Shown piece after piece: positions 6,189-63,747 of a stretch of DNA of 64,000 nucleotides. Below the pieces are notes generated by a model, which was not told the DNA's origin, made no database searches, and was given only the letters and a program-made list of their open reading frames with translations. Origin of the DNA: Patiria pectinifera. Lineage: Eukaryota > Echinodermata > Asteroidea > Valvatida > Asterinidae. The first letter of the stretch is position 1. Every line of letters begins with the position of its first letter. The position numbers and the translations under genes are program-made. The DNA is taken from NCBI GenBank assembly GCA_029964075.1, contig CM057147.1, positions 11,553,513-11,617,512 on the forward strand, written 5' to 3'.

Positions 6189-6448
6189 ACCACTGCTTAT
6201 TGCATTCCGGATCATCAATGTTTTGGACTATTCATGTATCTGGTGCTGGTCCTAAACTCATTAGCTATGAACTTTTCTTCTTGTCGTAAATAGTTGGGGG
6301 TGTCCAAGTAGTAAGGCTTGTGAGGTGCTGGCACTTTCCAGTTCCTTAAAATATATTCCTTAAAAAAAAATAAAAAATAAAAAATAAAAAAATGGGACTC
6401 GATCATAATCACCGTATTCCCAAAAAGTGCCGCCGAGCGAAGGACGCC

Positions 6449-6910: not shown

Positions 6911-7042
6911 TAGATTATGGAAGCATACAAAGACCGCTTTTTATCAACAAAAATTACAGTCAAATACTTCAAAATAGCTCGTTTTCACTGCAAGCATAAT
7001 TCTTTCACATGATCATCTAATTCCATCCTTAAAAAAAAACAG

Positions 7043-7207
7043 GTGCTGGGAAACGACTGGAGCTACGACTGCAATGAGACAGGTCATGAGGGTCAGCACG
7101 AGTCGTCCTACACGGCTCAGATGGCTCCTGGCAACAATGGCATTATTGTCTTCACCAAAACCAGACGGACTCATCCAATACCTTACGGCAAATCCAAACA
7201 CCAAAAG
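7043..7207 (+). CDS. Isolated exon-like fragment with lipid-transfer-protein helical signature
   Basis: The segment is open and bounded by AG (7041-7042) and a GTATAT donor. Read from 7044 it contains TTGATTAMRQVM, then WLLATMALLSSPKPDGLIQ. This resembles the helical repeat of vitellogenin-type lipid transfer proteins (GT...aa, then a leucine-rich helix and P-P). Exon 6 of the main gene (12681-12855) carries the related LILLSPKPNKELVERLL. It ends with two bases of a codon, which does not fit the phase of the exon at 8116. It may be a skipped or alternative exon, or a remnant of a duplicated gene copy. The acceptor has an A-run, not a pyrimidine tract. Confidence 0.4.
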
Positions 7208-8115
7208 GTATATAAGACAGGATATCACCTGTACCCGGGGAGGGGGTGCACCGGTTGTGTACGCAAATAAAGTTAGAAGGGTGAAGTCAAATTTGGCGGA
7301 TCTGTTATTTTAAATCACACCTGCTTATTTCAATAAAGTTACAAACCACACCAACAAAAATATGTTTAAAAAAATGTTCACACGTTATCACGGTTTCATA
7401 ATCATAAAACAAAACACTTGTAGCTACAACTGAAAACAATTGCTCCTGCGCAAAAGCGTGAGGTCATTTTTTTCCGGGGGGGGGGGGGGGGGGGCTGTAG
7501 GATTTTTTTGTTCATGTTCTCATTATTCTTTTGTTACGCAACAGTGATTATATGAGCAAACTTTATGTAGAATGTTTTCAATGATCACCTTACCGGAGTT
7601 CATTATTTGAACGGAAACCCCTAACGGTGGGTCTGTGTTTAACAGTTGTAAGGAAAAAGTGTATTTCACGCACAAAACAATAACGAAGGAGACATTCTTG
7701 TCGGTTTTGACGGGGCACAACCGCAAACTAGACTTCAGTTGCTGACTTTATCATGCGAATCATTCAATCTTCATTCTCAAAGTTTCTCTTCCCTTGATTT
7801 GTTTTTAATTGCTAGTTTTAAGCAATACAAAGTTATTCACTTTTTGAATGATAATGGCATAACAACTTGACTTGGAATTATTTGCGAATTATTTGACAAT
7901 ATTTCATCGGGCGACCCTAACTAAACATAAAATGTCTTCCTTGAGGAAGAAAAAAACCGTAGTTAGTGGTGGAAATATAATTCAAAAAAAAATAGTCATT
8001 ACAAGAAAAAAAAAGTTGAATTGATATACTAGGATTAATTATCTCCTTAAAAAAAATCTCAATTCCTTTGGAAGCCAAACTAACATCATGCTTGTCAATA
8101 TTGGTGTACATTTAG
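7208..8115. other. Non-coding stretch before exon 1
   Basis: No gene is seen. It holds a G homopolymer near 7478-7494 and otherwise AT-rich sequence. Minus-strand open frames here lack any recognisable domain. Confidence 0.5.
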
Positions 8116-8201
8116 GAGATTCACTATCACCCAGCTATGCAGCTCCCATCCATGGTGAAGATACTGGACCACTTTGATGCTCCGAAAGAATCAGCACCTG
8201 G
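8116..8201 (+). CDS. Exon 1 (first supported exon)
   Basis: The acceptor is TTTAG and the donor GTAGGA. The 28 codons plus two bases include MQLPSMVKILDHFDAPKES. The frame is chosen because it is the only one that joins exons 2 and 3 without stops. The ATG at 8137 has no signal peptide after it, so this is probably internal rather than the true start. Confidence 0.55.
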
Positions 8202-11200
8202 GTAGGATGTTTTAAGTCACTATTTTCTGCGTCTCTTCTGTTTCGAATTGAGACGCCATATTCGATTTTTTGAGTCGTTCTTTAAGAAGAAGAGGGTACC
8301 ATTTACAGAAACTAAATGATTTAATATCGAACTTGAACGGTAATGAAGGATATCAAGGTTTACAAAACTTTACAGGCAACAAAATCTAATGTTTGGGAAA
8401 TCGTTCAGAAGAACGATCAAAAGGGGCTTGTGTATGAAGCGGATTTGTGATGTCTGCAGCATTCATACATATTTCGCAATGTCCTTTTATTACATTCGTT
8501 TTATCTCGTAAAGAACACAGTTTGCGAATGAACACAGTGAACTTGATAAATATCCTTTTAACGTCTGTACTGATCCAATTCAAACGATCATCTACCTTTG
8601 ATCTCTGTTAAGTTCAAGTTCAGACGGTATCATTATTGTAGTGGCTGCCGGTGGGATAAAATAGTTTCCCGCCCTCTTTTGTGAGAAAAACGAAATATTG
8701 TTAGTCTAGTCTGGCTCCTGAATACGCCACGTGTTTGAATGATCCTTAAGCGTCTAGGTATAATAACTTAATAGCGGAAAACTTTGAAGTTGAGTTTTAA
8801 CTCAGTCATGTGTGCTGAGTCAGTCATGTCAGTGTATATAAACTGAAAACATGCTTGTTTATCCAAACCTGGAGGAAGGAATCATCCATGATGAAATCAA
8901 CAGAGGCCTGGTCTTGTTGTGACCATGTCCAGAGCAAGGAAGAGTCACGTCAGCATCATACCTATTCATAGTTCATTAGTTGAACGTACGCTGGCGACTG
9001 TCTGTTTTCTGAACGAAAAAATAAATTGGCCACTTTGTAGACATGTAGCCTACCAGATATTTTCTGAATAATGTTTCACTGAATTTTACTGACATAAATC
9101 TTTGACTTTAGTAATAATAGTATTTGTTGAGATAGTTCCGATCAACAAAAAAAAAAACAAAAAAAACAAAGAGACTGATTGTTTTCCATTATTTTATCAT
9201 TCCTGACCCTGTTACAGATTTCAGCATCAACATCATTGGGATGAACAAGCAGGAGATGATATTGGTAAATATTGTTTGGAATAATTTGTGGTAAATTTGT
9301 GTGAGATTGGTGTTCAAATTGCTAAATAGTTAATGCATGTAGGGCCATTTTTTTTTCTTAAGAAAAAGGTCCATTAATTAACACTATAAACCCCCTTGAG
9401 CATGTTGAGTGATTTACTAGAAATCTCCTCACTCTTGCAAAATCCAACACCAAACTGCTGGACTCTGATTGTGGTGGTATGCCTGACCCCATGTAATAAA
9501 AGCATAATCAGTTAAGTGCAGTACTCATTCAAACAGATTCCAACAAAACATGCAGTTGGATTTTGATGGGTTGGGGGTGGTTATGGTTAATTAGTAAATT
9601 ATTATAAGGTATACAAAAAATACATACATTTGTACATGTATGTCCTTGGAAACCCACTTGAGAAAAGGAAGGAGAGAAGGTACTTTACTCCTATCTTCTG
9701 GGGAAATAGTGTGCGTGGAACTACATGGATGGGCTTCGTGTAAGAACAGTAGTAGGCGCTGTGTGACCTCTTTCCATTGCACCAGTGGGAGGCAGTGGGA
9801 GGGACACCCGGCATGCACGTACTGGTTTACACGCATTTGGCGCGAAGTACCCACAAGTCATGTTGTTCTGAATGTGCACAAGCCAATATCGTCGTCATAC
9901 ATTGACAGGCGCAACGCGCAATGACATCAAGAGATCCCACCAGTGGTCTCCCCAAACCCTTTTATTAGTTGAGGGGATCGTATCTGTGCATGGCTTCCTC
10001 ACTTTAGCCATGGCCCATGCATTAATGCATTTAACACAATCTGACCTTGACTATTGTACATTTTATTTTGTACATGACTTAGTTATGTAGTTCAGGTATA
10101 ACATGATCAAATACTGATGCAACTTTTAATCTGCCGTTAGTGTAGTAAGTCTGTGGTGAGTTGTAACATTTCTACAAAGTTGTTAGACAAGTTTCTCGGT
10201 CCCAAATTAGTTTTCCCCCAACATAATTGTAATGACTGGTCATTGTTGAGCTGATCGTAATCTTGACAACAGGGTTGTACATTCCTTTCATGGGCTTGAG
10301 ACATGTGAGAAGGTTAGTTGGTTATTGACATATTTCAGATGAGATATGGCGTGCCACTACAAATCAAACCAGACAAAGGGTAATTGATTTCTTTTGTTTG
10401 AATGACACTCAGAGTTTCCTGAGATGCAGACTGTTTCTGAAGGACAGCTGACCTTTGTTGGAGAGTCCTACTACCAGTCACCTACTGGACCACCTGATGA
10501 CGAGGATATTGTCACTGACTCCATTCACCTGAGGAAGGTACAAATACTCAAATCAAGTATCTTTAATTGAGGTTATCAATTATGCCGTTTCACTATATAC
10601 ATTTAGGCCTAGCCTGTACTACTTTCCATCAGCAATCACACTTTTGGTCACATACCTTGGATGCATGAATGCATGCGTACACATGGATGTATTAGCGATA
10701 CCCGACATAATGATTAGAGCTACTAACCGAGAATTGGAATTTGATGCGATCTGGTAATTTTTTTTAATTTTATTGGCAAATTAAACAAATATTTTTTTTT
10801 GTACTATTTTTAACTGAAAAATCATGTTGTCTTTTCTGTCTTCACAAAACGCTTCTCAACAACCTTGTTATGTCAAAAACGCTTGTAATTTGTTTGCCTA
10901 CTTACATTCACTATTTTTGAGAAGAAACCTCCGTTGTTTTTACAACTTCCCTCCGCAATTACAAGTTTCCTTCGCAATTTGCTATCGCGGTGATGAAAAC
11001 ACGTGCATAATGCTCAATGCAGCAATGCTGTACTGGTTTCCGCCGCGCACTAAAAAGGCCAAAGAAGGCATGATGGAAATGCAGCAACCGGTCTATGCAA
11101 CCAGTCTATGACCGACCAACATTAAACAGGGTGCACTGCAGTTGCAGGTCGGTACATCGAACAAAAATGCCAAGTAAACATCGATGGAGAAAAAAGATTT

Positions 11201-14200
11201 CTGCAAGTTATTTCACTGATCTTGATTTCTCTTGTCTGTGTATATATTTTCCGTGTTCATCAATTCATTTAGAGGTTGTACAGCTCGTACTTAGAGGCGA
11301 GGCTTACATGTTGTCCTCAAATGTATGAATATGAATTAAACCTCACTGATTTGTTTACTCTGTTCCTAGCTGCAAAATGTTCATCTGAACTTTGATATGA
11401 CATCCTTGAAGGAGGAGATTGCTGACAACTTGACATGCATGAGGACAGCACCTATGAAAGGTATGATGCACCGGGAGAAAATAAGACACACAAACTGTTT
11501 GGACAAAAAAATTGACCCATGAGAGTCAATGCAATGTCTGAAATAACAGTCCAATTTATCGAGACAAATATAGTTAAATGACTGGTAAATGTGAGTCTAA
11601 TTTGTCCAAGACAATTTGAATCAAGCATTTTGAACAAAGAATGGACGAATTATTGTCTAGTTTCTCTAATAATTTACCCCAGAGGTTGACATATGGACGT
11701 GCAGTTCATGGCAAACATTTAACATATGACATACAAAGTCACCACATTATTCACTGTATTCTTTAAAATATGTATTAAAAGCGTTCTCTTAAATATGTAA
11801 GGTTTTTATATTTGACTAGTGCTTAAATTTTAATCCGTAATTTTAATAGTTTAACAAATTACTCTGAACATGTAATGCGTATTAGAATATTTCGATATTT
11901 TGCGCAAAATAGATAAACATTTCATTATTGATAACCACAGGTCAAATCATTTTTTGCTTACATGTACAGCATTATCAAAGAAATTTTGCACTAAGTAAAA
12001 TAATAGAGAGCTTCAAAAATATCCAAATGGAGTAGATCTCTGCCAAGCTTAAGAGATTGTCTTACCCTTTTGTCATACACAGGATCCCATGAACAGACCC
12101 ATTGTTACCAGAAGCTAGTTCAAACTTTACACTCGGTGCCTGACGCTCAGAAACTGGCAGAGATTGTGTCTCCAATGTACAAGCTGCCACTGTCCAGGTA
12201 TGCAATACATGATGTCCAGGTATATTCTCATTCTCAATGCGCCAATGCCACGTCAAGTCGCACGATTCACGCTCGCACAGCGCCCGAGTTGCGTCATTAC
12301 GGCGCCCAGACCAGAGTGCAGAGGTGTTGCGATTCTTGTGAGTATGTTCAAAAACGTTGGCGCTCATCGGAAACCACTATGGCCCTCTGGCGCCCATCTG
12401 GCAACCTATAGTTGTCGCTGCGATCTAGTAGTTGTTGTTGCGCCCCGGCCATTTTTAAGGACGCAGTGAGAGCGCATAAAAATATGTGAACGCCGACAGT
12501 CTGACAGGGCCTTAAGCACATAATTGCTAGGCAATAAGTAGATTGTGTACGGTTTGTGACTGGTTGTCAGTTGAGTTACGCTAAGCACATAATTGCTAGG
12601 CAATACTGTAGTTTCCACTTAAGCAGATCCATGAAATTGGGCCCTTTTCAGATGTTAGAGAGCATTATTTCTTTTCTCAGACGTATCCGTGACAAGCAGG
12701 ACAGGTTGAACATGCTGGATGCAGTTGCCGGGATACACACTGATGCCTCCCAGTCGCTCCTTACTGATCTCATCCTCCTGTCTCCAAAACCAAACAAGGA
12801 GCTGGTAGAGAGACTACTCATTGCCTCTGCTGGCTTCACACACACTATATCAGAGGTAGTGTACAGACTCCTTTCAAGTTGTTTCTTAGGATTTAATTGC
12901 TGTTTATATGGCATTGAAATTATGAATGATGATAGTGTCAAAACATCAGCCTTATAATCCATTAACATTTTTTATGTTGATTTTTTTCAGCATTACCTAG
13001 AGACTGTAGAAGACATCGCCTTTCAACCTCACAAATTCCCTGGTAAGTTTTGGAATCTTTCCTTTCTTTAAAAACAAAATAAAAAAGTGTTCCCTTAACC
13101 CATCTATCTACACGGAAACAAATCAGAGGTAAGTATTTTTCACTAATGCTGTGCAACCCGCAGTCCATAAAGGCTCATGTCGTATTTGCTTATGTCGTAC
13201 CTGGTTGCCCTAATCGCCCGAGCCGAGTTGAGAGCAATTATCGGCGACCAGGCCCCTAACCGCATTGGTTAAAAACTTTTTAAAAAGTACAAACATTATG
13301 ATGCTGTGTAGTTCAAGAATTTTACATTTCATTGTTGTCCTTGTTCAGGGACCATTTATGTGAACAGAGCATGAATTGCCATTCCCACCCTCTCCCCAAA
13401 CAAACACGCAAAATGACAGCCTCGATACCGGCTGGTTATGAACACTTCTCAGCAGTGCTCTAACAGCGCTTTAAAACCACCCGCGTGACAGGCTGTCTTC
13501 CAATAAAACTGTTAACTGTCCATTTAACCACATTTTTGAACAACGTAACATTTGTGAAAGGACCATTCATTGTAAATCTTTTTGTTCTAGAATCCTTAAA
13601 AGACCCTGAGATACAGAGGGTTGCTGTGCTGGCACTTGGTTCCATGGCTGGTCACCGATGGAAGGCTGGATACAAGTCTCAAGCACAATTCATTGTCCGC
13701 AAGATTGAGGATAAACTTGGTGTGCACGGTCAGTTACTAGAAAATCTTTGTGGTTGAGAAACGCCAACATTCAGTTTCTTTGTATTTGAACAATATAATA
13801 TTTTGACTTGTTCTGTTCAGAACGGTTTTTTTTTGCCAATTGACATTAACTGTTTTTAAATAACAGTTCCTAAACAGAAACCATATTTCCAATAAAGATC
13901 TCACTTTTAAAGGTATTTTTGTATTTATTCCGGACTTTTTGGAAATTTCTTGGTGTCTGGTCAACATTTTTTTGGAAAGGTTATGGACATTCATGACCTG
14001 TTCTGTCAAACCAAGTATATGTTTGAAAATTACACTTTGAGGTTCCTGAAAAGGGATCCATAAGCACATGGTGTGGCAGCCAACATTTTCGTTACAAGTA
14101 CTTAGCATTATGCATTTAGTTACTCTACAGTTGTACAGTTTGACTTGAAGACTTTGACCTGTCCTGGCTTCTCATTTGGCAAGTGTTGCAGGATGTATAG

Positions 14201-59200: not shown

Positions 59201-62200
59201 TGGCCTTGCCTGGGGATGGCTCAGTCAAAGGTTTCCTGGAGGAGCTGGGAGACAATGTGGGACAGGCAGCTATCCAGCTGGTACTGACAAAACTCAACCT
59301 ACAGGTGAGAGTGACACACTGGAACACCCAAAGAGGATAGAGTGTCTTTCAAAAACAAACTGAAAAAGGGCTAATTAAAAGGGGGCTAAAATATCATAAG
59401 CAACACCCCGTGTCACATTACATCCACACCCTTCCCCTCCACCCCTCCTTCCATGCTTTTCCAATTTGTCATGACCTGGTGGGCTGTCCCCAAATACAAG
59501 GCCTGGGTACACCACTAAATTGATATGACACTTTGCCAACTGAAATGTATACTTCTTGGACCTGTGGTCTGCTTACTGTGAGAATCCTTGATAACTGTAG
59601 CAGAATATTCTGGGGTACCACTGAGCATATTTCACGTGTCAAGGAATTTTGGCTTGTGTGCATACATGCATTCCCACGGAGTCACACAATTTCTTTGCAG
59701 GCTCTGTTGGCCAAAAAAGAAAAAGGTTAATGTAAGTGCATAATATCTGTGGTTAGCCTTACAATGGAATTGAGCCCTTTGGTGTAATGATCAGAAATTT
59801 TGTAGAAGCTGACATCTGCCCAGATAAAATAGGGATTATACTATCTTTTAAACCTTTGATCTTTGATGTTTAACCATGTCAAACAAATAAAGTACATACA
59901 TGATGGCACCCCCCCCCAACCAAAAAAACCTGGAACATCATACTTCCACTAACTTGGAACCACCTCTACTAATGGATGGAAAATCTTTTTAAAAGAAATA
60001 TGATACCAAAATCTCTCGATTCACTCCACTAGTTTTTGTTGCAGATCCTATTTTGTGAAGCACACATCTTTCATGTAGGTATTACTACATAACAATTAAA
60101 CCCTCTATCCAATTAAATGAGATTCGCAGGCACAGTTTCGTAATTCATCCGAACAAAATGACTCCCGACTGTGTTTCACAACATGTGGAACTGTCTAATG
60201 GACTGAATCGGGCGATCTTTGTGTCATTTTCTTAAACAGAATTCCCCATGCAATTGTTTGAATCTCAGGGTTGCTGGAGTACGCCGTGCCGGTTTTTTTT
60301 TATATGGCCACCATGTGTAAGGGGAAATTAGGTTCTGACAAGTGCATTTGTCTTCTTAAGCTTACTTTTGAGTGGAAATGGAGGAATAGCCTTTTTAAAA
60401 TGTGGCTGTTGTTATATTAGCAGGGATATCGCATTCAAATGCTTAATATCTGAGATACTACCTAATGCTACTTGTACTAGCATTAGGTCTGTGTAATTTT
60501 GTTTTACTTACATTTCTTACATGTGTGTTGTATTTCTTACATGATGATATTCGTATTTTCTATTTTGTACCTTAATCTCCTTTTTGAATTTTTTTTCCTC
60601 AATGCATAGAGTTTAATTGTATTTCTTATTGATCTGTCATTTTCTCAGGATACGATCATTGGAACGACGTGCCAGTTGCCTTCACAGATAACGACAGGCA
60701 CCCGTAAGTCTGTGTTTGATTGATTGGTTTCTGCTAAAGGCCCTGTCACACTGTCTGCGATCTTATATGCGCTCTCACTGCGTCCTTGAAAAATAGCTGG
60801 GGCGCGAAAACAACTACTAGATCGCAGCGACAACTACAGAGGTCACCAGATGGGCGCCAGAGGGTCTTAATGGTCTCCGATGAGCGCCAAGGTCTTTGAA
60901 CATGCTCAAAACAATCGCAACACCTATGCGCCCTGGCCAGGACGTCGTAATGACGCATCTCGGGCGCTTTGCGAGCGTGAATCGTGCGACATTGAAGTGG
61001 CATTGAGGCAGCCTATAGGCGCAAGACAGTCGATGTAGTCTCCGTGAGAAAGTAACTCGACTGCGATGAACTTGTAGAATAATTTTGAAATTGGACTATG
61101 TATTGACCGTTTTGTCGTGGTATTTATACAGCGCAAGTGACGTCACATGAGCGTATTTTGGTCGAATAGAGAGCGCAACGCGAGCTACTAGGACGTATCA
61201 ACAGCGAGCAGAGCGTTGTGTGAGCGCAGTGACAGCGCAGCGGCAGCGACTAGACCGAGTAATTGAGCTTGACGGGGCGCAAAGAGAGCGAGTTGAGCGC
61301 ATCGTAAGCGCGGGAAGAGCACAGTCCGAGCGTAGCTTGAGCTTCTTTGAGACAAAAAGTTGTCATTTTCTTGCGTCCTCGCTGCGATTGATAAATTTAT
61401 GAAATATTTCTGGTCGTCGTAAGGTCTCCTATGAGATCGCATATAATGTGAAAGGCCCTATACCAAATTCAATTTTGAACATGGCCCAGTCAGTGGTGAA
61501 CTCAATATTGCTGTAACAGTGACATGGTATTGGTTGAGCATTTTTAATGCGTCACGTAATCGTGGCCAGGATCCTTGGTAATCAAATTTGCTACTAAATG
61601 TACATTTGCAATTAATCGGCAAGTACCAGCCACTTCATATCAAAGACGAACGATCAACAATTAATGTTTGTATAATGCATGTACATGTATACACGAATCC
61701 TGGAAACTTTTGATGTCAACACAACTCTGCCGATCTTGGACTTTAAGAAGAAGCTTCTGAAGTTAGTACATTGGCAATGAATCCCTACCTACAATGTTTA
61801 CAGTAATATTTGTATATAACTTTCATGATCTTTTGCCCATCCACCAGCCTCGGAATATTTTCGCAGGACTGTGTCAGTCTATATAGTTAGTTAATTGCGA
61901 TCAAATGAATAAATATAAATCAAACCGCACCCCTCGCTGACACTTATATCCCTGCACCTAAAACATCACTTAATGGAGTCGTGGAAAGAGGAAATTGAGA
62001 CCAATTTGCCAGTCAAAGGACAGTACGGTCATTCAGTAAGCACATGCTCATCTACAAGGGAATTCCCCAAGATAAGAAATAGCTTGCTATGGCGAGTCAC
62101 GTTACGGCTCCACAGTACATGTGACGGGTGGTCATGCATTATGCATGTTAGTAGATCCATTTACATTCGGTTGGACTCCGTGTGGCCTGGGGCAGCATAA

Positions 62201-63747
62201 ATTCTACACAAGTGACAAAATTGATGTCACGTTTTAAAAATAAGCAGTGTTCCGTATGAAACATGTCTGTAAAAACAAAAACAGGCTTGATATTTCCTTA
62301 TGAAATGTCAGAGACAAATTTGCTTCCCTTTGGCTACCAGGAACACCACCCTCGACACATTTCAATTCATTAGAGGCATAGTTCAACATGGACAGATTCA
62401 TGAAGACGTGTACAATGCGATGTATGACCCACCATGGCGTGCTCGGCATGCTTGCACCATAGAGAAAGCAACAGATCTATGCTTGCAGGAAGGAAAGATC
62501 CATGGTCTACACAATTTGTTTGTTCCTATCCTGCAATGAAATTACCTGTCCAAGTAATGAAGCATTTATAAAATTATGCGCAATGACGATCAAGGAATCA
62601 TCTGGCTGAAATTATCCATGTATCCTTTAGTCGTCTTTGTTTTTTCTTTTTTTCTTTTTTACTAGAATGCCCATTGATCTCCCTACCCTTCCTGGAGAAT
62701 GTCGTCCAATGTTCCATCGACGATCGCTGCCTCGGCATCCAATGCTGCATCCATCTTGACTTTGTCATCACTGAACTCTTGCTGAGTGCAAGGATTCAAG
62801 TCGACCCTTGCAACTTCCAGCTGTATGTGGCCTTTGAGAACTGGGAACTGAACATCACTCTCTTCAGCTACACCTGGGGAAAGGTGGAAACGGTGAACAT
62901 TGGAAACGCTGTGATGTTGAGGTGAGTTTGGTGCTTATGTTTCTTCTGTTTGTTGAGGATTGGAGAATTGGGGAAAAATCTGTTCTTTTGATTGTTAATT
63001 GAAGTTACCAAATTTAAAGATGAAATACTCCTTAATTTGTAAAAATGGACTCGAAAGATACAATTCAGAACATTTCAAAACATGATTGGGCAATATGATT
63101 GAGCAACTTTTGATTTGAAATTGAGATCCTAGAATGCTGTTTTTCTCAGAATATACATCTTAGATGTTGAACACTTTTGTTGCTTCAAACAAACAAAATG
63201 CACAAATTACAAATGATGGACTATGTCTTTAAAAAGCCATTTAAGATGTTGCATTTGAATTCCATTTCAACTATCCATGTATACAAATATGACAAAATCG
63301 GATCCTTGAAGCACTGATACACAAGTATAGGAAGGAAACTATTAATTACAGTAGTTCTTTGGGCCGAGAACTTCTGGTGAGCACTACTTTCATTTATATG
63401 TCCCTATAAAAATATGACACTTTAATGCCAATGAAAATTACCTTGTGTAATTTGCCCCCCCCCAATAATTCAAATTTGTAACATTTGCTATTTTCAGCTA
63501 TTCCCTTGAGAAGCTGACAGCCAAGAGAGTCTTCTCTGTGACTTTGAGTCTCACGTTGTGCATTGATGACACCTGCACCATGAACCCAATACTTGACCAT
63601 GTCTGGGTTCCTATACCCTTGTGTAACACTAATGCTACATCATTCACCTTGCCTGGTGATGGCACAGTGGAGGGATTCATACGAGAGCTAGGCGGTCGCA
63701 TTGGAAACTCTGCTATTGACCTGGTGCTGGAGAAGTTTGGCCTGAGT
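8116..63747 (+). CDS. Giant multidomain secreted-type gene (48 exons in window, incomplete at both ends)
   Basis: I assembled 48 exons whose donor and acceptor phases agree at every junction, giving about 2520 codons with no internal stop. Approximate residue order: 45-350 helical region like the vitellogenin/MTP large lipid transfer family; 350-510 beta-type segment; 510-810 amphipathic helices; 830-1000 M23/LECT2-like fold; 1010-1060 Pro/Thr/Glu-rich linker; 1064-1123 helix; 1130-1169 SAP-like motif; 1170-1359 module 1; 1360-1406 second SAP-like motif; 1407-2520 modules 2-7. Modules share CLGxxCC, DPC, K(L/I)-containing strand, PIPLC and LPGDG motifs, about ten cysteines each, and N-glycosylation sequons, which implies secretion. 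No signal peptide or initiator Met is identifiable, so the 5' end lies upstream or was missed. The gene continues past 64000. Lipid carriage is inferred from the N-terminal similarity only. Start and end given are the first and last supported coding bases, and introns lie between. Confidence 0.8.
9218..9264 (+). CDS. Exon 2 (small, His/Gln/Asp-rich)
   Basis: The 47-base exon lies between TTACAG and GTAAAT. The phase-consistent frame reads GFQHQHHWDEQAGDDI. The alternative open frame (DFSINIIGMNKQEM) would need a previous exon ending after one base, which exon 1 does not give. The frame is therefore chosen by phase, not similarity. Confidence 0.5.
9620..9960. repeat. Dispersed intronic repeat copy
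   Basis: It contains TGTGACCTCTTTCCATTGCAC, GGGAGGGACAC and TGAATGTGCACAAGCCAAT. Related strings recur near 17780-17870, 34555-34680, 47150-47230, 48510-48640 and 56370-56440. The overlapping open frames are not conserved and are not called as genes. Confidence 0.45.
10413..10537 (+). CDS. Exon 3 (N-terminal beta segment)
   Basis: A clean exon with a GTACAA donor. It encodes FPEMQTVSEGQLTFVGES, a short Pro/Asp-rich loop and TDSIHLRK. Alternating hydrophobic residues suggest beta strands, as expected at the end of the N-terminal barrel of lipid transfer proteins. Confidence 0.8.
10538..11369. other. Intron 3, no feature seen
   Basis: AT-rich intron without recognisable repeat or conserved frame. 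The open frame at 10824-11111 has no domain I can name and no matching splice context. Confidence 0.5.
11370..11460 (+). CDS. Exon 4
   Basis: It lies between TTCCTAG and GTATGA and encodes LQNVHLNFDMTSLKEEIADN followed by LTCMRTAPM. It is a strand then a helix, leading into the helical domain. NLT is a possible N-glycosylation site. Confidence 0.8.
12083..12197 (+). CDS. Exon 5 (start of helical domain)
   Basis: It encodes CYQKLVQTLHSVPDAQKLAE then IVSPMYKLPLS. The pattern FxxLVxxLRxL...L is typical of the first helices after the N-terminal sheet in vitellogenin-type proteins. Confidence 0.85.
12235..12515 (-). mobile_element. Truncated copy of the GC-rich TIR element seen at 60736
   Basis: Reverse complement of about 60738-61005, including GCGCTCTCACTGCGTCCTT, the ATCGCAGCGACAACTA region and the AAGGCCCTGTCA end. 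Only one half is present. It is much richer in GC and CpG than the surrounding intron. The overlapping open frames on both strands are artefacts of this element. Confidence 0.75.
12513..12605. repeat. 24-bp direct repeat
   Basis: TAAGCACATAATTGCTAGGC (plus AATA) occurs at 12513-12536 and again at 12582-12605. It lies just outside the end of the truncated element and could be a local duplication linked to its insertion. Confidence 0.8.
12681..12855 (+). CDS. Exon 6 (helical domain)
   Basis: The acceptor is TTTTCTCAG and the donor GTAGTG. It encodes RLNMLDAVAGIHTDASQSLL and then LILLSPKPNKELVERLLIAS. In lipid transfer proteins the equivalent repeat is LLDALxxAGTxAS..., then Pro-x-x-x-Leu-Leu. 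This is the strongest family signal in the N-terminal part. Confidence 0.85.
12991..13042 (+). CDS. Exon 7
   Basis: A 52-base exon after a T-rich tract and CAG, with a GTAAGT donor. It encodes HYLETVEDIAFQPHKFP, a helical segment linking exons 6 and 8. Confidence 0.8.
13591..13728 (+). CDS. Exon 8 (helical domain, ALGSMA motif)
   Basis: It encodes SLKDPEIQRVAVLALGSMAG and ends IVRKIEDKLGVH. The string A(L)LALGSLA is a hallmark of the helical region of vitellogenin and MTP, which supports the family call. Confidence 0.88.
14287..14498 (+). CDS. Exon 9 (helical domain, ALGNAG motif)
   Basis: It encodes EFHHDTVALIEALGNAGLHR, FPHIQSY and LLKRAGLHSLRDY. The (E/K)ALGNAG...ix...l pattern followed by an R-A-A/G-L-x-x-L-R helix is characteristic of vitellogenin_N-type superhelices. 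Confidence 0.9.
14907..15040 (+). CDS. Exon 10 (end of helical domain)
   Basis: It encodes AAGILLKSALDEDENEHVRY then EASLFYKNHPMGG and ends FVTPEE. The acidic stretch followed by EVRxEAxxxL...P matches the last helices of the lipid-transfer helical domain. Confidence 0.88.
15041..16834. other. Intron 10, no clear feature
   Basis: 1.8 kb. A GC-rich patch near 15600-15660 stands out from AT-rich surroundings. I see no conserved frame, inverted repeat or RNA gene. Confidence 0.45.
16835..17037 (+). CDS. Exon 11 (beta-sheet start, basic cleavage-like site)
   Basis: It opens with EYSAVNSSQDVAITAVSVPS, then SRHRLRRGFW and a strand-rich part ending EFGLTIRNELNMNI. RHRLRR fits a furin-type R-x-x-R/RR site near residue 412-417, as found between domains in many lipid carriers. 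Cleavage is inference. NSS is a possible glycosylation site. Confidence 0.88.
17338..17483 (+). CDS. Exon 12 (beta segment)
   Basis: It encodes PLSGHLSVDLLDEAYATVVV, GLVGFSLDLARARFCFNG and YNLNILQ. Alternating hydrophobic residues suggest amphipathic beta strands, as in the C-sheet of lipid transfer proteins. The donor is GTATGT. Confidence 0.88.
17995..18227 (-). mobile_element. Truncated hAT-like MITE (relative of 53501 element)
   Basis: Reverse complement of the first part of the element at 53501-53831. The end GGATCCGCCCTTG lies at 18215-18227, and the GGGGCCCTTAAGCGGGCCCCG block is shared. Similarity stops near 17995 at GATGTCACA, so the second inverted end is missing. It includes a 14-base C run. 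Confidence 0.75.
18580..18606 (+). CDS. Exon 13, possible 27-base microexon
   Basis: A long T tract and TTTGCAG precede KVFYEFEYR, with a weak GTAGCT donor. The frame continues open to 18656, where a better GTAAAA donor exists, but that would leave two bases and exon 14 can only start in phase 0. Exons 12 and 14 also join directly in phase, so this exon may be optional. Confidence 0.4.
19007..19189 (+). CDS. Exon 14 (amphipathic helices)
   Basis: It encodes EFGVERISDFVKAYDLIIGQ, NIRRAVDIVVGLFNG and LFDDFVQALENIPSNIT. Long helices with regular hydrophobic faces resemble lipid-surface helices. In-frame TGA at 18959 and a single AG force the start at 19007. Confidence 0.88.
19451..19553. repeat. 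Short perfect-stem foldback
   Basis: AAAAGGTAAG...GCAAAACGAAAACAATT is followed after a short loop by its near-complement AATTGTTTTCGTTTTACC...CTTACCTTTT. The arms are about 44 bases with few mismatches. It would form a strong hairpin in the pre-mRNA. Confidence 0.8.
19747..20142. mobile_element. About 396-bp foldback MITE
   Basis: The ends read CACCTGTTTCAGATAGGCA on the left and the complement of CACCTGTTTCAGACTGGCA on the right. The inner arms share GGTATCTATATAGGACCA and its complement (19938-19955, 19979-19996). The arms are interrupted by unequal sequence. No transposase. The superfamily was not identified. Confidence 0.75.
20225..20555. repeat. Inverted AAGGGCATAT repeat pair
   Basis: GTGCCCGGCAGAAGGGCATAT near 20229-20249 and the complement of TGCCTGGCAAAAGGGCATAT near 20525-20550 are inverted. 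Two more copies of the core lie at 20465 and 20511. It may be a small non-autonomous element. Confidence 0.5.
20681..20833 (+). CDS. Exon 15 (amphipathic helices)
   Basis: It encodes NVRYVATEAVSRLSQFDPDQ, VINVVNKATQLFSDIKTD and VMEFYQ, between CTTATATAG and GTCATT. The helical pattern continues that of exon 14. Confidence 0.87.
21666..21808 (+). CDS. Exon 16 (amphipathic helices)
   Basis: It encodes LPWAAEQIWKSIIAIADSIV, DLLKSPLKAIADIFKGVL. Strong hydrophobic periodicity and a GTAAGT donor. Joins exon 17 across an AA|C codon. Confidence 0.9.
21831..22020 (-). mobile_element. tRNA-derived SINE-like head
   Basis: On the minus strand GTGGGTTCGGGCCCCAC (21936-21951) resembles a pol III B box. 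The flanking order resembles other tRNA-like heads in this window (25390, 34246). No clear A box or tail was found, so the call is tentative. Confidence 0.3.
22050..22157. repeat. Small imperfect foldback
   Basis: AAGAATAAT...CAGATGGAATGTTACATTCCAT and ATGGAATGGAACATTGTCATCTGG...ATTATTCTT are imperfect inverted repeats with a short centre. Confidence 0.6.
22497..22697 (-). pseudogene. Possible coding remnant, unknown
   Basis: The minus-strand frame reads LPTIIYSNKDAYSLNGGGVI, AFPNGPEISKLKWKKF and TPSDLLYKGKWLEEESKV. Its composition looks protein-like, but I recognise no family. It lies in intron 16 and is probably a transposon-derived fragment. Confidence 0.3.
22724..22794 (+). CDS. Exon 17 (charged helix)
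   Basis: The 71-base exon encodes IKTAVIEIKNAKKEVEEANF then FKE. A charged, probably coiled helix, with a GTGAGG donor. Confidence 0.82.
23274..23486 (+). pseudogene. Possible coding remnant, unknown
   Basis: The frame contains LVKTSRLIDTMTG, GQTIFAIRTLCRSLDVEPTD and IQFLTNLLKKN before a stop. It looks like real protein but has no place in the gene model and no family I recognise. It is probably a transposon fragment in intron 17. Confidence 0.3.
23540..23850 (+). mobile_element. Dispersed family copy with CArG-like core
   Basis: It shares TTGGTCGAGAGCCCGTCA, the TGTCACATGAAAT...GGACTCCTATGAAAT block and CTCCATATAAGGAG with the copy at 30765-31330, and in reverse with 50310-50960. It breaks into a foldback element at its right end. 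Confidence 0.7.
23860..24353. mobile_element. About 494-bp foldback element
   Basis: The left arm (about 23860-24025) and right arm (about 24185-24353) are inverted copies. Shared strings include ATGCAACCCTAAA, AGCGGTTAGGTGGATTTTTA (imperfect), TTCTTTCAAA and GCTGAGAAAATG. It is inserted in or beside the dispersed copy at 23540. No coding content. Confidence 0.75.
24653..24816 (+). CDS. Exon 18 (amphipathic helices)
   Basis: It encodes YWFDLPKVIGDMLNELREHL, NIRRDLSVWVDEIVG and DPVKKLTGGAVDS. The plus-strand frame from 24529 is open upstream, but the splice site at GCCAG fixes the start. Confidence 0.88.
25360..25460 (-). mobile_element. SINE-like fragment
   Basis: The minus strand carries TCTGAGTTCAAACCCAG, a good match to a pol III B box, next to CTTAGTTCTTGTGTCCTTCA-like sequence. 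The A box is not clear. Confidence 0.3.
25511..25677 (+). CDS. Exon 19 (amphipathic helices)
   Basis: It encodes LRRRVKDEIESIFQDLMEPI, PIVNLLKPFFELYDLVFSTV and DAVKKAYQTLKEG. Last of the helical block before the M23-like domain. The donor is GTGAGT. Confidence 0.9.
26226..26406 (+). CDS. Exon 20 (start of M23/LECT2-like domain)
   Basis: After LVMKLFGPKAHERFPRKY comes PGSGECASGGFYPTDSAGYY and DQGVDLEISAGAM. LECT2 and M23 peptidases have H-Q-G-V-D with His and Asp as zinc ligands. Here Asp replaces the His (codon at 26368) and the second Asp is kept. The domain continues in exons 21 and 22. Confidence 0.88.
26407..27842. other. Intron 20
   Basis: 1.4 kb. Apart from the transposase remnant listed at 27075, I see only AT-rich sequence and T tracts. 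Confidence 0.5.
27075..27305 (-). pseudogene. Mariner/Tc1-type transposase C-terminal remnant
   Basis: On the minus strand one frame reads LILLYLKDQVYR, then TLHELCQRITVEV and RAIADM, a stop, then CIDVNDRQVEG. This matches the order (FFLWG)YLKDxVY...TLxELxxRI...RxxxCIxxNGxxxE found at the end of mariner-like transposases. No DDE core is seen. Dead fragment in intron 20. Confidence 0.5.
27843..27995 (+). CDS. Exon 21 (M23/LECT2-like domain, core)
   Basis: It encodes LVAPFSGVLFKSAG, QVTLLAGGGAFRNIKIFIDN and ISETEGVN. VxAPFSG directly after GVDxxxSAG is the strongest match to the LECT2/M23 fold. The remainder fits its beta-sandwich strands. The first strand is short of any catalytic residue. 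Confidence 0.9.
28566..28823 (+). CDS. Exon 22 (M23/LECT2-like domain, end)
   Basis: It encodes VIAGTVIGTVG (the GxxIG strand typical of M23), then NYIHLFMKNSK. In active M23 enzymes this site is H-x-H. Here the first, catalytic His is Tyr (28626) and the second is kept (28632). A longer acidic and basic tail follows. An earlier donor at 28811 is possible in the same phase. Confidence 0.85.
29042..29100. repeat. G homopolymer in intron 22
   Basis: A run of nine or ten G bases near 29085-29096. Such runs are common in this window (5628, 5915, 7478, 14846, 34765, 37385, 52553) and produce false open frames. Confidence 0.6.
29690..29855 (+). CDS. Exon 23 (Pro/Thr/Glu-rich linker)
   Basis: It encodes GRTVKAGTLLGGDNNGETED, then a stretch rich in Pro, Thr and Asp (RQPPPDTTTDRPDPSKIPPK) and LDEALSQ. 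Probably a flexible, possibly O-glycosylated spacer. Confidence 0.87.
30430..30608 (+). CDS. Exon 24 (helix before SAP-like motif)
   Basis: It encodes EILGLPVPKIGSG, FENFTLRNLKIGSILAFARK and KTADDLLTVVKTIV. NFT is a possible glycosylation site. Confidence 0.87.
30765..31330 (+). mobile_element. Dispersed family copy with CArG-like core
   Basis: It includes ATTGGTCGAGAGCCCGTCACG, CCATATAAGG (31070-31079) and, at the 3' side, TGGAGTCTGGATACTGATAAT. Related to 23540, 50310 (reverse) and 53230. No coding frame is shared among copies. Confidence 0.75.
31620..31758 (+). CDS. Exon 25 (SAP-like motif 1)
   Basis: It encodes KLVSDKPCVLAESLSNDMLR then IELQQRGLSSQGDRKTLLQR. The pattern L-x-x-x-L...L-x-x-R-G-L...G-x-(R/K)-x-x-L-x-x-R is the SAP helix-turn-helix, usually nuclear and DNA-binding. 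Here it precedes the first cysteine module. The single Cys aligns with the linker Cys of later modules. Confidence 0.85.
31759..32865. other. Intron 25, no feature seen
   Basis: A short G run lies near 32463. Open frames on both strands lack any recognisable domain. Confidence 0.45.
32866..33075 (+). CDS. Exon 26 (module 1, cysteine segment)
   Basis: Cysteine segment with CPLLQVSLP, C-x5-SCLGVECC and FDPCEFQFVLG, then WNYTIQILDVEFG. Six cysteines in the spacing shared by all seven modules. NYT is a sequon in the same place as NLT, NVS and NIT in modules 5, 6 and 7. Confidence 0.9.
33076..34107. other. Intron 26, no clear feature
   Basis: AT-rich, about 1 kb, with no recognised element or conserved frame. 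Confidence 0.4.
34108..34174 (+). CDS. Exon 27 (module 1, connector)
   Basis: It encodes KEWDMPVPFDIPFVDDMELH then LR. This piece is a separate exon only in module 1. In modules 4-7 it is fused to the cysteine exon, and in modules 2-3 to the following exon. Confidence 0.85.
34238..34312 (-). mobile_element. tRNA-derived SINE head
   Basis: The minus strand has an A-box-like CTCAGTTGATAGATTGCC (34281-34298) and a B-box GCAGGTTCAAACACC (34246-34260) with tRNA-like spacing. No intact cloverleaf is obvious, so this is a SINE head rather than a functional tRNA gene. Confidence 0.5.
35255..35418 (+). CDS. Exon 28 (module 1, strand segment)
   Basis: It encodes YRIEKSRTQLLVSMAVGFC, a Cys after seven residues, then IQVLKDSAIALPVCHSDGT. 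Equivalent to YSIxKLD...C...C...PIPLC of later modules, but lacks the glycosylation sequon they carry. Confidence 0.88.
35539..35666 (+). CDS. Exon 29 (module 1, terminal helix)
   Basis: It encodes IDLEEYFSRAALKNLLKETG, EELLKAG and WKYVLEELGIPM. Equivalent to GDGTIxGFLxxLG...AIDxxLxxLGL of later modules, with LPGDG replaced. Confidence 0.85.
37242..37262. repeat. Telomere-like (CCCTAA) run
   Basis: About three and a half units of CCCTAA at 37242-37262 in the left arm. The matching place in the right arm goes from GGATGTTGG to other sequence, so the run is specific to one arm. Confidence 0.7.
37310..38055 (+). pseudogene. Frameshifted transposon protein remnant (left arm)
   Basis: Shifting frames read FEGKIGFRSN, EEGVDLSPSTLSLTSLIKQY, PTTSAINATVTLRGMTY, ERCSVCPKEIADEEPIISDI, DTDDFLNNNF and LMRIKDAKTVSQILADEEAE. 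The order (ATxxxGMTxSK..., then LERxxxCPxEIAxGxPxI, then NDDF) resembles a multi-copy uncharacterised animal protein that I associate with mobile elements. The precise family name is not known to me. Several frameshifts and stops. Confidence 0.55.
38260..38790 (-). pseudogene. Frameshifted transposon protein remnant (right arm)
   Basis: The minus strand carries the same protein pieces as the left arm (VDLSPSTPPLTSLITQYVIK-like region, MTYSKEL, MHDLERCSVSPEEIAEGEPS). The right copy keeps MTYSKEL where the left has a stop after MTYMQQ. Also broken by frameshifts. Confidence 0.5.
41167..41308 (+). CDS. Exon 30 (SAP-like motif 2)
   Basis: It encodes ELLGGKEPCPTPSSLSKMQL, then IATLEERQLATNGTRMEMEA and RLSQDD. 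Same L...L-x-x-R...G-(T/K)-x-x-x-x-x-RL pattern as exon 25. It lies between modules 1 and 2 and begins with the linker-type xLxxxxxC. Confidence 0.82.
41309..42899. other. Intron 30
   Basis: AACCATGACGAGTCGAT occurs twice, at 42067 and 42151, marking a short duplication. Otherwise AT-rich sequence with no recognised element. Confidence 0.45.
42900..43130 (+). CDS. Exon 31 (module 2, cysteine segment)
   Basis: It has CQLFTLPEF, C-x5-CLRLDCCLQLDLED and IDACDFTFYVAF, ending LLLSYEWG. The usual DPC is DAC and CLG is CLR. The sixth-cysteine spacing is kept. No sequon in this segment. The intron falls inside the final G, as in modules 1 and 3. Confidence 0.9.
43247..43266. repeat. CA microsatellite
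   Basis: About ten CA units in intron 31. Confidence 0.9.
43810..44010 (+). CDS. Exon 32 (module 2, strand segment)
   Basis: It encodes YSINKLDAEKAFEIDFGASI, C-x6-C, and YRVPVPFCNSNFSFSLP. NFS is the conserved sequon. The donor splits the G of LP-G, as in module 3. Confidence 0.9.
44112..44559. mobile_element. About 448-bp palindromic MITE, Tc1/mariner-like
   Basis: The ends read TA-CACCCAACCAAAAAAAAGT and ACTTTCTTTTTTGGTTGAGTG-TA. The long arms mirror each other up to a short centre near 44320, sharing GTTGCACTTTTGTATGCGTG and its complement. TA at both ends fits the Tc1/mariner target duplication. Non-autonomous. Confidence 0.8.
44733..45048 (+). mobile_element. Penelope-like RT fragment flanked by inverted arms
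   Basis: The left (44733-44800) and right (44983-45048) arms are inverted copies containing ACACCATGTGCGAATAATTT. Between them a plus-strand frame (about 44833-44942) reads RFFGQPTIHKPEIPLRPIVA then SRGSPTY. This matches the (R)FYGLPKIHKPxxPLRPIVSxxGSPTY motif of Penelope-like reverse transcriptases. Only this short piece remains. Confidence 0.7.
45332..45481 (+). CDS. Exon 33 (module 2, terminal helix plus linker)
   Basis: It encodes GGTTLREFINQVGPSAGQQA, VNILLEFIGLRDKINDGPCD and ALIGPDEE. Here the helix and the Cys-containing linker share one exon. In modules 3-7 the linker is a separate small exon. Confidence 0.88.
45559..45932. repeat. Tandem duplication, period 187 bp
   Basis: Two adjacent copies starting ACGCAGATCTTT at 45559 and 45746. 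Each includes TTGAGGAAGGTAGAGCCC and TTCTTGGTTATCTA. The copies differ at scattered bases. Confidence 0.85.
46090..46302 (+). CDS. Exon 34 (module 3, cysteine segment)
   Basis: It has VCTDVSLPLLPSG, C-x5-RCLGIRCCTELDLE and LDPCEFTLSMGLGKW, ending FDYHWG. Full six-cysteine pattern. Intron in the final G. Confidence 0.92.
46749..46955 (+). CDS. Exon 35 (module 3, strand segment)
   Basis: It encodes EELKIGKALTLIYTIDKLTE, DLALSLCLQDSDC and RVPIPLCNENFTFTLP. NFT is the conserved sequon. The IGKALTL connector is part of this exon, unlike modules 4-7. Confidence 0.92.
46956..49000. other. Intron 35
   Basis: 2 kb with a dispersed repeat copy near 47150-47230, a patch rich in TTCGCAAA/GCGAA (47430-47640), a degenerate tandem repeat (47790-48345) and a further dispersed copy near 48510-48640. 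No gene is seen. Confidence 0.5.
47790..48345. repeat. Degenerate tandem repeat with AGGTCA-like half sites
   Basis: About four copies of a roughly 155-bp unit. Each has TGACCTCT or TGACCTAT, then AGGTCACC or a variant, then AGAGGTCA/AGGGCA and AGATATxAATT. Copies begin near 47799, 47957, 48119 and 48269. The strings match nuclear-receptor half sites, but function is not shown. Confidence 0.55.
49001..49092 (+). CDS. Exon 36 (module 3, terminal helix)
   Basis: It encodes DGTIKGFLQMLGQNAAESAI then DAILEHLGLS. Donor GTAAGT after a complete codon. Confidence 0.92.
49477..49537 (+). CDS. Exon 37 (linker 3)
   Basis: The 61-base exon encodes EFISRMPCVRPQVTQDGWHR. One Cys at position 8, as in all linkers. 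Confidence 0.85.
49818..50079 (+). CDS. Exon 38 (module 4, cysteine segment plus connector)
   Basis: It has CPKDVRLPHLPRN, C-x5-KCLGFDCCLELPI and FDPCNYQLSVSLGSW, then YQWGQQEEVDIGKAVTIR. From here on the connector is in the same exon and the intron lies after ...TI-R. Confidence 0.92.
50310..50960 (-). mobile_element. Dispersed family copy, reverse orientation
   Basis: The minus strand matches 30765-31330, including the CCATAAGG(AG) core, GAGAGCCCGTCACGTGGGTGG and the TTGGTCCxTTTACCGTTTTATTGGT region. At 50330-50455 an internal palindrome contains TTAAGACTGGCTTGG and its complement. It preserves an uninterrupted AGCACATATTTATGCC site that is split by an insertion at 53501. Confidence 0.75.
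51117..51363 (+). CDS. Exon 39 (module 4, strand and helix)
   Basis: It encodes LTIDKLDAEELFQINLDISI, C-x5-C, SLVPIPFCNLSASFELPGDG and LAIQAGLRKLGIV. The strand and helix parts, separate exons in modules 1-3, are fused here. NLS is the sequon. Confidence 0.93.
51364..53006. other. Intron 39
   Basis: 1.6 kb. It contains an AT dinucleotide run near 51772-51792 and a G/C-rich patch with a 13-base G run at 52540-52610. No gene is seen. Confidence 0.5.
53007..53061 (+). CDS. Exon 40 (linker 4)
   Basis: The 55-base exon encodes QYVSNQQCDMEILAPSEN, with the conserved Cys at position 8. Donor GTAAGT. Confidence 0.85.
53230..53500 (+). mobile_element. Dispersed family copy, internally deleted
   Basis: It begins AAGACAGTTTACCCAAACCTATTGGTCGG and passes to GACTCCTTTGATAAGGTATG..., lacking the middle part of the 30765 copy. 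It ends at AGCACACA, where the hAT-like element follows. Confidence 0.7.
53501..53831 (+). mobile_element. hAT-like MITE, 331 bp, with 8-bp target duplication
   Basis: The inverted ends are CAAGGGCGGATCC (53501-53513) and GGATCCGCCCTTG (53819-53831). The flanks are AGCACACA and AGCACACT, an 8-bp duplication with one mismatch. CA-starting ends and an 8-bp duplication are hAT hallmarks. No transposase is encoded. A truncated relative lies at 17995-18227. Confidence 0.85.
53927..54182 (+). CDS. Exon 41 (module 5, cysteine segment plus connector)
   Basis: It has CPLLRLPPPSSL, C-x5-RCLGLTCCASLDLV and LDPCEFQLSVGLGSW, then KNLTLFEYDWG and VLDISDSVRIE. NLT is a sequon. An AG at 53939 is also possible, but the start at 53927 keeps the first Cys. 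Confidence 0.92.
54183..55174. other. Intron 41, no clear feature
   Basis: About 1 kb. GCATTGGTAATTGTTCGG is repeated directly at 54285 and 54309. Otherwise nothing is recognised. Confidence 0.45.
55175..55421 (+). CDS. Exon 42 (module 5, strand and helix)
   Basis: It encodes YNVDKLNEQKEFLIDLSVIL, C-x5-C, HVPIPICNPNATFSLPGDG and AAVDLVLDYLGLK. NAT is the sequon. The donor is GTGAGA. Confidence 0.93.
55500..56010. repeat. Tandem repeat, about 85-bp unit, six copies
   Basis: ACACCACTCATGG followed by TGTGCATGTATGGCATATTATG and AGCATCTTCACATGAGCA recurs near 55536, 55615, 55702, 55798, 55882 and 55966 (spacing 79-96). The open frames with repeated WFVHVWHIM-type text are only this repeat translated. 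Confidence 0.8.
56853..56910 (+). CDS. Exon 43 (linker 5)
   Basis: The 58-base exon encodes NFLSRDTCSLPPALPVGSD, with Cys at position 8 and donor GTAAGT. Confidence 0.87.
57035..57620. repeat. GATTGACT(T)G minisatellite
   Basis: Dozens of degenerate copies of TGATTGACTGATGATTGACT, with the 11-12-base core TGATTGACTGA or TGATTGACTTG. Some copies carry GATGACTTG or GAGTGACTGATGATTTAATT. A shorter, related TGATGACTTG cluster lies at 21030-21072. Confidence 0.9.
57621..58520. other. Rest of intron 43, nothing clear
   Basis: A CpG-containing patch near 58265-58380 (ACGCACG, GACGCACATGCG) stands out. No gene or named repeat is recognised. Confidence 0.45.
58521..58773 (+). CDS. Exon 44 (module 6, cysteine segment plus connector)
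   Basis: It has CPVQIPDSLPN, C-x5-RCTSLHCCLNLDLK and IDPCDYALSVGLELW, then FNVSLFSYEWG and FMIGDALSVR. CLG is changed to CTS. NVS is a sequon. Confidence 0.92.
59058..59304 (+). CDS. Exon 45 (module 6, strand and helix; two cysteines lost)
   Basis: It encodes FSIDKLDATKEYEVDLAFSL, then IIDGIATDFPIMA with neither of the usual two cysteines, RIPIPLCDANLSLALPGDG and AIQLVLTKLNLQ. NLS is the sequon. Confidence 0.93.
60649..60703 (+). CDS. Exon 46 (linker 6)
   Basis: The 55-base exon encodes DTIIGTTCQLPSQITTGT. Conserved Cys at position 8 and a GTAAGT donor. Confidence 0.87.
60736..61460. mobile_element. GC-rich TIR element, about 725 bp
   Basis: The left end reads AAAGGCCCTGTCACACTGTC and the right end TGTGAAAGGCCCTA, preceded by GAGATCGCATATAA, which mirrors GCGATCTTATATGCGC on the left. 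The interior is rich in GAGCGC/GCGCTC and CpG, unlike the flanking intron. A half copy in reverse is at 12235-12515. No transposase. Confidence 0.75.
61461..62665. other. Rest of intron 46, nothing clear
   Basis: The open frame at 62300-62539 has no recognised domain and no compatible splice site. Treated as non-coding. Confidence 0.4.
62666..62921 (+). CDS. Exon 47 (module 7, cysteine segment plus connector)
   Basis: It has CPLISLPFLEN, C-x5-RCLGIQCCIHLDFV and VDPCNFQLYVAFENW, then LNITLFSYTWG and VNIGNAVMLR. NIT is a sequon. Confidence 0.93.
63498..63747 (+). CDS. Exon 48 (module 7, strand and helix; last in window)
   Basis: It encodes YSLEKLTAKRVFSVTLSLTL, C-x5-C, VWVPIPLCNTNATSFTLPGD and AIDLVLEKFGLS, with a GTGAGT donor. 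NAT is the sequon. The module-7 linker and the rest of the gene lie beyond 64000. Confidence 0.93.

Follow-up and report, generated by a model that had tools for sequence, protein, structure and literature searches.

A giant forward-strand gene in Patiria pectinifera combining a vitellogenin-type head, an M23/LECT2-like domain and tandem cysteine modules: a candidate branch of the large lipid transfer protein superfamily

Introduction

Which kind of protein is encoded by the long chain of exons that runs along the forward strand of a 64,000-nucleotide stretch of Patiria pectinifera DNA (the whole stretch being referred to here as the window)? A first-pass annotation had joined 48 exons from position 8116 into about 2520 codons and described an unrecognised giant protein in which a vitellogenin/MTP-type N-terminal half is followed by amphipathic helices, a LECT2-like M23 fold, two SAP motifs and seven tandem cysteine modules. 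Large lipid transfer proteins (LLTPs) are lipid carriers in many animals, and DUF1081, DUF1943 and VWD are domains known from their extracellular members. Here, we rebuilt the gene model, searched for its relatives and asked which function is compatible with the domains it carries.

Results

The exon chain and its limits

The final model comprises 48 exons on the + strand between 7043 and 63747, which add up to 7752 bases or 2584 open codons with no in-frame stop. Exons were assembled by dynamic programming over splice sites and codons, using generic splice weights set by us and a codon table that was seeded with window peptides picked by eye and then re-estimated. The resulting chain was tidied by hand to 2525 codons from 8137 before three changes were made on the basis of homology: the first exon was moved to the acceptor at 8116, exon 7043-7207 was added upstream and exon 3 was replaced (on weak evidence). 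A loose first run had yielded 85 exons and 3721 codons, the surplus of which was removed by stricter penalties and the module pattern. Seven exons at 36.6-38.8 kb lying inside a foldback element were dropped, and a start exon placed at 7074 in a different frame gave way to the homology-backed frame at 7043. Counted from 8116, our model has 47 exons and about 2530 codons and is thus close to the first-pass chain, which missed the upstream coding exon 7043-7207; position 8116 is a plausible acceptor (tttag/GAG) and not the start of the gene. The features of the chain are as follows, all on the + strand, with the evidence in brackets.

7043-7207, 8116-8201, 9218-9264 (or 9421-9476), 10413-10537 (+): exons 1-4, second part of a vitellogenin-type N-terminal sheet (N-terminal homolog profile)
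11370-11460, 12083-12197, 12627-12855, 12991-13042, 13591-13728, 14287-14498, 14907-15040 (+): exons 5-11, helical domain of Vitellogenin_N type (Pfam)
16835-17037, 17338-17483 (+): exons 12-13, furin-type site RLRR/GFWD and beta-patterned block of about 95 residues (homolog motif, alternation score)
19007-19189, 20681-20833, 21666-21808, 22724-22794, 24653-24816, 25511-25677 (+): exons 14-19, amphipathic helical segment of about 305 residues (hydrophobic moment)
26226-26406, 27843-27995, 28566-28823 (+): exons 20-22, M23/LECT2-like domain with GVDL and NYIH motifs and CDDYK at its end (Pfam below cut-off, homolog profile)
29690-29855, 30430-30608 (+): exons 23-24, charged/proline-rich linker and short helical stretch (homolog alignment)
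31620-31758 (+): exon 25, SAP motif 1 (Pfam SAP above cut-off)
32866-33075, 34108-34174, 35255-35418, 35539-35666 (+): exons 26-29, cysteine module 1 (module alignment and profile, as for all modules below)
41167-41308 (+): exon 30, SAP motif 2 (Pfam SAP below cut-off; two SAP stretches in the amphioxus homolog P0001)
42900-43130, 43810-44010, 45332-45481 (+): exons 31-33, cysteine module 2
46090-46302, 46749-46955, 49001-49092, 49477-49537 (+): exons 34-37, cysteine module 3
49818-50079, 51117-51363, 53007-53061 (+): exons 38-40, cysteine module 4
53927-54182, 55175-55421, 56853-56910 (+): exons 41-43, cysteine module 5
58521-58773, 59058-59304, 60649-60703 (+): exons 44-46, cysteine module 6
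62666-62921, 63498-63747 (+): exons 47-48, cysteine module 7, ending at a donor

All exon boundaries follow the GT-AG rule (checked with 9421-9476 as exon 3), and the substitute 9218-9264 is likewise preceded by AG and followed by GT. When five homologs were used as tblastn queries at E<=0.01, the 30 merged intervals obtained all lay on the + strand and coincided at least in part with an exon; this search left 17 of the 48 exons without a match. Every exon is aligned in 8-12 members of a 12-homolog alignment, with best per-exon identities of 0.27-0.65 except for exon 3, which as first chosen (9421-9476) reached 0.11. Scored against a profile built from only four homolog segments, the alternative 9218-9264 comes out on top among 63 phase-compatible candidates, by a narrow 21.8 bits versus 20.8 bits; exon 3 is the weakest part of the gene model and the choice of 9218-9264 is weakly supported. 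Twenty N-glycosylation sequons are present in the chain as modelled with 9421-9476.

At the upstream end, a profile of nine homologs matched the frame at 7013-7267 (E 9.5e-14), and profile positions 1-145, leader included, left no credible coding trace, the next match in 1-8300 on both strands having an E value of 6.1. Homologs in which the start is present open with a hydrophobic leader (judged by eye). At the downstream end, 63747 is a donor (AGT/gtgagt) rather than the end of the gene, and since module 7 stops at it the gene continues past the window. As about 145 N-terminal residues of the homologs, leader included, are absent, the last exon ends at a donor and four long homologs carry more modules, the gene is, judged by its relatives and splice signals, incomplete at both ends.

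The window also contains several repeats. Positions 1-5290 are occupied by a satellite array of units of about 950 bp that are 78-100% alike, each with an internal tandem repeat of about 50 bp; this array may lie within an intron of the gene. A 4.6-kb foldback (near-palindromic) element at 35789-40399, in the intron after module 1, has outer arms of 432 nt that are 97% complementary and inner arms of 79-92%; it was the source of the spurious exons mentioned above and coincides with a local rise in GC. Inverted interspersed repeats pair 17983-18197 with 53529-53738 (75-95%) and 12257-12407 with 60840-60990 (87%), and an 89-nt family has three direct intronic copies (23527-23615, 30754-30842 and 53230-53318). 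Tandem repeats within introns comprise a 187-bp duplication at 45558-45932, an approximately 86-bp array at 55510-56016 and an array of the 11-bp unit TGATTGACTGA at 57038-57620. Rfam and tRNA scans of the whole window were empty.

Relatives in amphioxus and molluscs

At least 25 relatives were found: at least five with the joined protein, at least 12 more by profile search and eight more by module search. They come from the amphioxus species Branchiostoma lanceolatum and B. belcheri, from one gastropod (Babylonia) and from the bivalves Mercenaria, Pinctada, Ruditapes, Saccostrea, Mizuhopecten, Potamilus, Mytilus and Argopecten; since a candidate is scored in the protein search only when it shares exact words, this list implies no absence from vertebrates, arthropods or cnidarians. 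Amphioxus P0001 shares 33% identity over 98% of the query, amphioxus P0004 29% over 100% and clam P0002 29% over 98%, and P0001, P0002, P0004, P0006, P0007, P0008 and P0009 all align with nearly the full chain in one stretch (about 98-100%). A single gene is thereby supported, this conclusion resting on homologous gene models. Across up to 1107 core columns, identity to the window is 28.8-37.0% in 15 homologs and 26.6% in scallop P0017, and a tree over the 1107 columns places the window outside both of the clades formed by the molluscs and by amphioxus, at no finer resolution.

None of these relatives carries a functional name; they are listed as uncharacterized or hypothetical, some with automatic domain names, NCBIfam searches of three homologs gave nothing useful, and a search of the openly licensed literature, including by twelve homolog record names, found no paper on the family. 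The protein was therefore rightly called unrecognised in the sense that no functionally named protein or paper was found, but homologs with the same domain order already lie in the databases. Mytilus coruscus P0012, which aligns over most of the chain, bears the ill-fitting UniRef name 'Carbamoyl phosphate synthase ATP-binding doma...' and is possibly misnamed or a fused gene model.

Some relatives contain further domains. Mytilus P0013 has two VWA stretches in its module array, which by eye lie after the beta part of a module and ahead of its tail, and Mytilus P0023 begins with part of a VWA domain. Argopecten P0017 shares the head and has one weak module, followed in the precomputed Pfam list by PF17963 and PF17803 (taken here as Big_9 and Cadherin_4). 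An EGF-like stretch and a transmembrane tail were also recognized in it by eye, and it is possibly a membrane-bound paralog.

A vitellogenin-type head followed by a beta block and amphipathic helices

The claim of a vitellogenin/MTP-type N-terminal half was borne out by Pfam: Vitellogenin_N (PF01347) matched the window with E 4.6e-15 and 55.6 bits (cut-off 24) over profile positions 283-582. The same domain was found in amphioxus P0004 with 40.4 bits over positions 2-521 of 590 and at E<=0.001 in five of ten homologs scanned, and was absent from P0010 at E<=0.01. The window thus contains the Vitellogenin_N / LLT module (PF01347) by which membership of the LLTP superfamily is judged. DUF1081, DUF1943 and VWD gave no Pfam match in the window pieces at E<=1 (the gene's own C-terminus lying beyond the window), nor in five homologs at E<=0.1, in ten homologs at E<=0.001, in P0004, P0009 and P0010 at E<=0.01, or in the precomputed Pfam lists of the 25 homologs found. 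Since these domains are missing among the Pfam matches, lipid loading via the standard cavity can be regarded only as putative. Solved LLTP structures were matched neither by the window head (single-sequence PDB search, E<=1) nor by the homolog profile (E<=0.1); the top PDB match of the latter (E 0.0043) was a designed repeat protein aligned with the helical head, which was discarded, and LECT2 came second.

Between the head and the beta block, the window reads RLRR, and a furin-type RX[KR]R site occurs in eight of the 12 listed homologs that cover this place. Further such sites are found inside the head in 9 of 12 homologs and after the M23 domain in 8 of 13; the window lacks both. The block of about 95 residues that follows has no Pfam match and shows beta-type alternation in the window (z 3.1, reached by 1 of 300 shuffles) as well as in P0001, P0003 and P0004 (z 2.3-2.9). 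The amphipathic helices proposed by the first-pass annotation stood out clearly, the helical segment having a mean helical hydrophobic moment of 0.429 versus 0.219 in shuffled sequences (z 9.9, reached by 0 of 300 shuffles), with z values of 9.6 and 9.4 in P0001 and P0003; no other tested part of the window chain exceeded z 1.6. Together, the furin-type sites and the strongly amphipathic segment suggest a secreted, cleaved and lipid-associated scaffold.

An M23/LECT2-like domain with a decayed zinc site

Peptidase_M23 matched the window with E 4e-4 and 20.9 bits, below the cut-off of 28.7, and its relatives lent the LECT2-like assignment its backing: six of ten homologs matched at E<=0.001 (best 3.3e-8), PF01551 is precomputed for five of the 25 homologs found, and a ten-homolog profile matched LECT2 (E 0.013) and SpoIIQ (E 0.055), both weakly. 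With the M23 stretch alone, the PDB search returned LECT2 at E 1.3, besides nanobodies (best E 0.033) that are regarded as chance matches.

A motif pattern located the region in 16 of the 25 homologs (P0001-P0016); P0018-P0025 were unmatched, and P0017, which the pattern missed, also reads NYIH. The zinc motif H(x)nD is broken in the window (EDQGVDL, with D replacing the first zinc histidine), and this histidine is absent in 14 of the 16 homologs and retained in two. The HxH motif is likewise lost in the window (NYIH), 15 of the 16 homologs having NHIH. The strand before HxH should hold a further catalytic histidine, but the window and 16 of 16 homologs have asparagine at that place (a motif reading of uncertain register). 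Since the first zinc histidine and HxH are both lost and asparagine takes the place of the further catalytic histidine, the window domain is probably degenerate and not a peptidase. The bivalve proteins P0007 and P0009 retain the first zinc histidine, the aspartate (H..GxD) and HxH, and may for this reason bind zinc. In PMC9662197, degenerate M23 folds are described as interaction hubs and LECT2 as lacking a catalytic histidine.

SAP motifs and an undescribed cysteine module

SAP 1 scored above the Pfam cut-off of 23.9 bits (E 1.8e-5, 24.7 bits) and SAP 2 below it (E 1.3e-3, 18.8 bits), the two motifs noted earlier being backed by relatives: Pfam SAP is above cut-off in P0001, P0009 and P0010 and below in P0004. 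The motifs sit in the linkers that flank module 1, one on either side and each between cysteines; a pattern for this arrangement caught SAP 2 in the window and both motifs in P0001, and SAP 1 of the window was recognized by eye. The apparently secreted context argues against a DNA-binding or nuclear role.

The module spans about 190 residues with the pattern C...C...C...CC...DxC...YxWG...C...C...PxPxC, and the seven tandem copies that had been counted were all recovered. The array shows strong beta-type alternation (z 7.3, 0 of 300 shuffles), and the seven module tails gave no significant helical hydrophobic moment. No credible PDB relative emerged from an eight-row module profile (best E 0.3), module 6 as a single sequence gave nothing useful, and two window modules tested had no Pfam match at E<=1. 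Eight module triplets scanned singly returned sporadic hits only, namely Agarase_CBM (7e-4) in one and Cu_bind_like in two (best 0.0066); the latter, plastocyanin-like, also appeared with E 0.08 in one of five homologs and is a weak lead only. The module would therefore be an undescribed domain without a credible Pfam or solved relative. Counts, partial modules included, reach 14 in P0001, 13 in P0003, 16 in P0007 and 27 in P0006, and range from 1 to 11 in the remaining 11 homologs with modules, many of which are partial.

Overall, the order of head, helices, M23 domain, SAP motifs and modules holds, and the profile searches that had been proposed as a check found Vitellogenin_N, M23 and SAP similarity, with M23 and SAP 2 below cut-off in the window.

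Discussion

The gene appears to represent a new branch of the LLTP superfamily, one whose architecture is new and whose module is undescribed. Our preferred explanation, to which we assign a probability of roughly 0.45, is an LLTP-derived extracellular protein that captures lipid-bearing particles or microbes, in haemolymph or elsewhere; a capture or opsonin-like lipoprotein is our best guess from the domains present. Secretion would follow if the leader of the homologs also starts the window gene. The chain would then enter the secretory pathway, where the head would fold and might take up lipid as other LLTPs do. Cleavage by furin-type enzymes would fall between head and beta block and, in many homologs, at further sites within the head and behind the M23 domain; the resulting fragments may stay associated. 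The amphipathic helices would rest against lipid or a membrane, and the groove of the M23 domain would bind either fragments of bacterial wall or a partner protein. Locked by disulphides, the modules would together make up a long and multivalent arm outside the cell. We infer the association with lipid from the amphipathic segment together with the head, the groove's ligand binding from degenerate M23 relatives (PMC9662197), and a non-yolk role from the roles suggested for other LLTPs (PMC1783640).

The main rival is a structural protein of the extracellular matrix or of a secreted gel, in which the modules act as a spacer and adhesive chain and the head persists as a relic used solely in folding and secretion. 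We consider it possible if rather unlikely. The modules could simply be structural, and chains in which as many as 27 disulphide-rich modules occur (counting partial ones), the VWA domains within the Mytilus array and the PF17963, PF17803, EGF-like and transmembrane parts of P0017 fit such a protein; a mere relic, however, would not need the amphipathic segment and beta block, which align in 12 of 12 homologs with best per-exon identities of 0.30-0.56 and whose periodicity is kept in the homologs tested. A role as a yolk or bulk lipid carrier, the protein being a paralog of vitellogenin or apolipophorin that bears additional domains, would account for the Vitellogenin_N head and for furin-type sites like those known for some LLTPs (PMC1783640). 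We regard it as improbable, given that DUF1081, DUF1943 and VWD are missing among the Pfam matches, no phosvitin-like serine tract was noticed by eye and the chain consists mostly of cysteine modules and an M23-like domain.

Less probable still is an active M23-type metallopeptidase with accessory domains, for example a secreted peptidoglycan hydrolase: the Peptidase_M23 matches and the intact H..GxD and HxH motifs of P0007 and P0009 speak for it, but the window has D for the first zinc histidine and NYIH for NHIH, 14 of 16 homologs lack the first histidine, and asparagine replaces the further catalytic histidine in the window and all 16 (register uncertain). That the exon chain joins two or more neighbouring genes is the most remote of these alternatives. 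Partial homolog records exist (P0005 and P0014, both from Mercenaria, P0016 and P0018-P0025), yet single gene models from amphioxus and bivalves each align continuously with about 98-100% of the chain, and phase is maintained through 48 exons.

We further suggest, as possible if rather unlikely, that this LLTP branch was already present in the mollusc-chordate ancestor, and that a small beta block, a long amphipathic segment binding lipid, a decayed M23 domain sensing microbial walls or a partner, and an open-ended series of undescribed disulphide modules replaced the classic lipid cavity sheets and VWD tail in what became a secreted lipoprotein capturing microbes or particles. If true, a giant branch common to amphioxus and molluscs would widen the LLTP superfamily, add an undescribed extracellular domain with up to 27 copies per chain and provide the degenerate M23 fold with a further animal home besides LECT2.

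Comparison with known systems

With vitellogenin, the MTP large subunit, apolipophorin II/I and apolipoprotein B, the window family has in common the PF01347 domain, apparent secretion and furin-type sites. It differs in lacking Pfam matches to DUF1081, DUF1943 and VWD, in place of which come the beta block and the amphipathic segment, then the M23-like domain, the SAP motifs and the cysteine modules. Extracellular LLTPs have been suggested to act in clotting and immunity (PMC1783640). A coral skeletal vitellogenin-like protein was considered as a relative and rejected, having VWD and kinase domains according to passages of PMC4890752.

LECT2 and the degenerate M23 proteins SpoIIQ, EnvC and NlpD share with the window domain an M23-like sequence and a decayed zinc or catalytic site, whereas the window domain is built into a giant chain and is followed by a conserved CDDYK segment and a helical linker. 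PF02037 matches are shared with SAP motif proteins; unlike the nuclear ones, those of the window lie in an apparently secreted, cysteine-bracketed setting, for which the C-terminal SAP fold of MANF/CDNF is a secreted precedent. The closest likeness in domain order is to the long ones among the uncharacterized amphioxus and mollusc proteins, from which the window protein is set apart by the 13-27 modules of four of them, the VWA domains of Mytilus P0013 and P0023 and the other domains of P0017.
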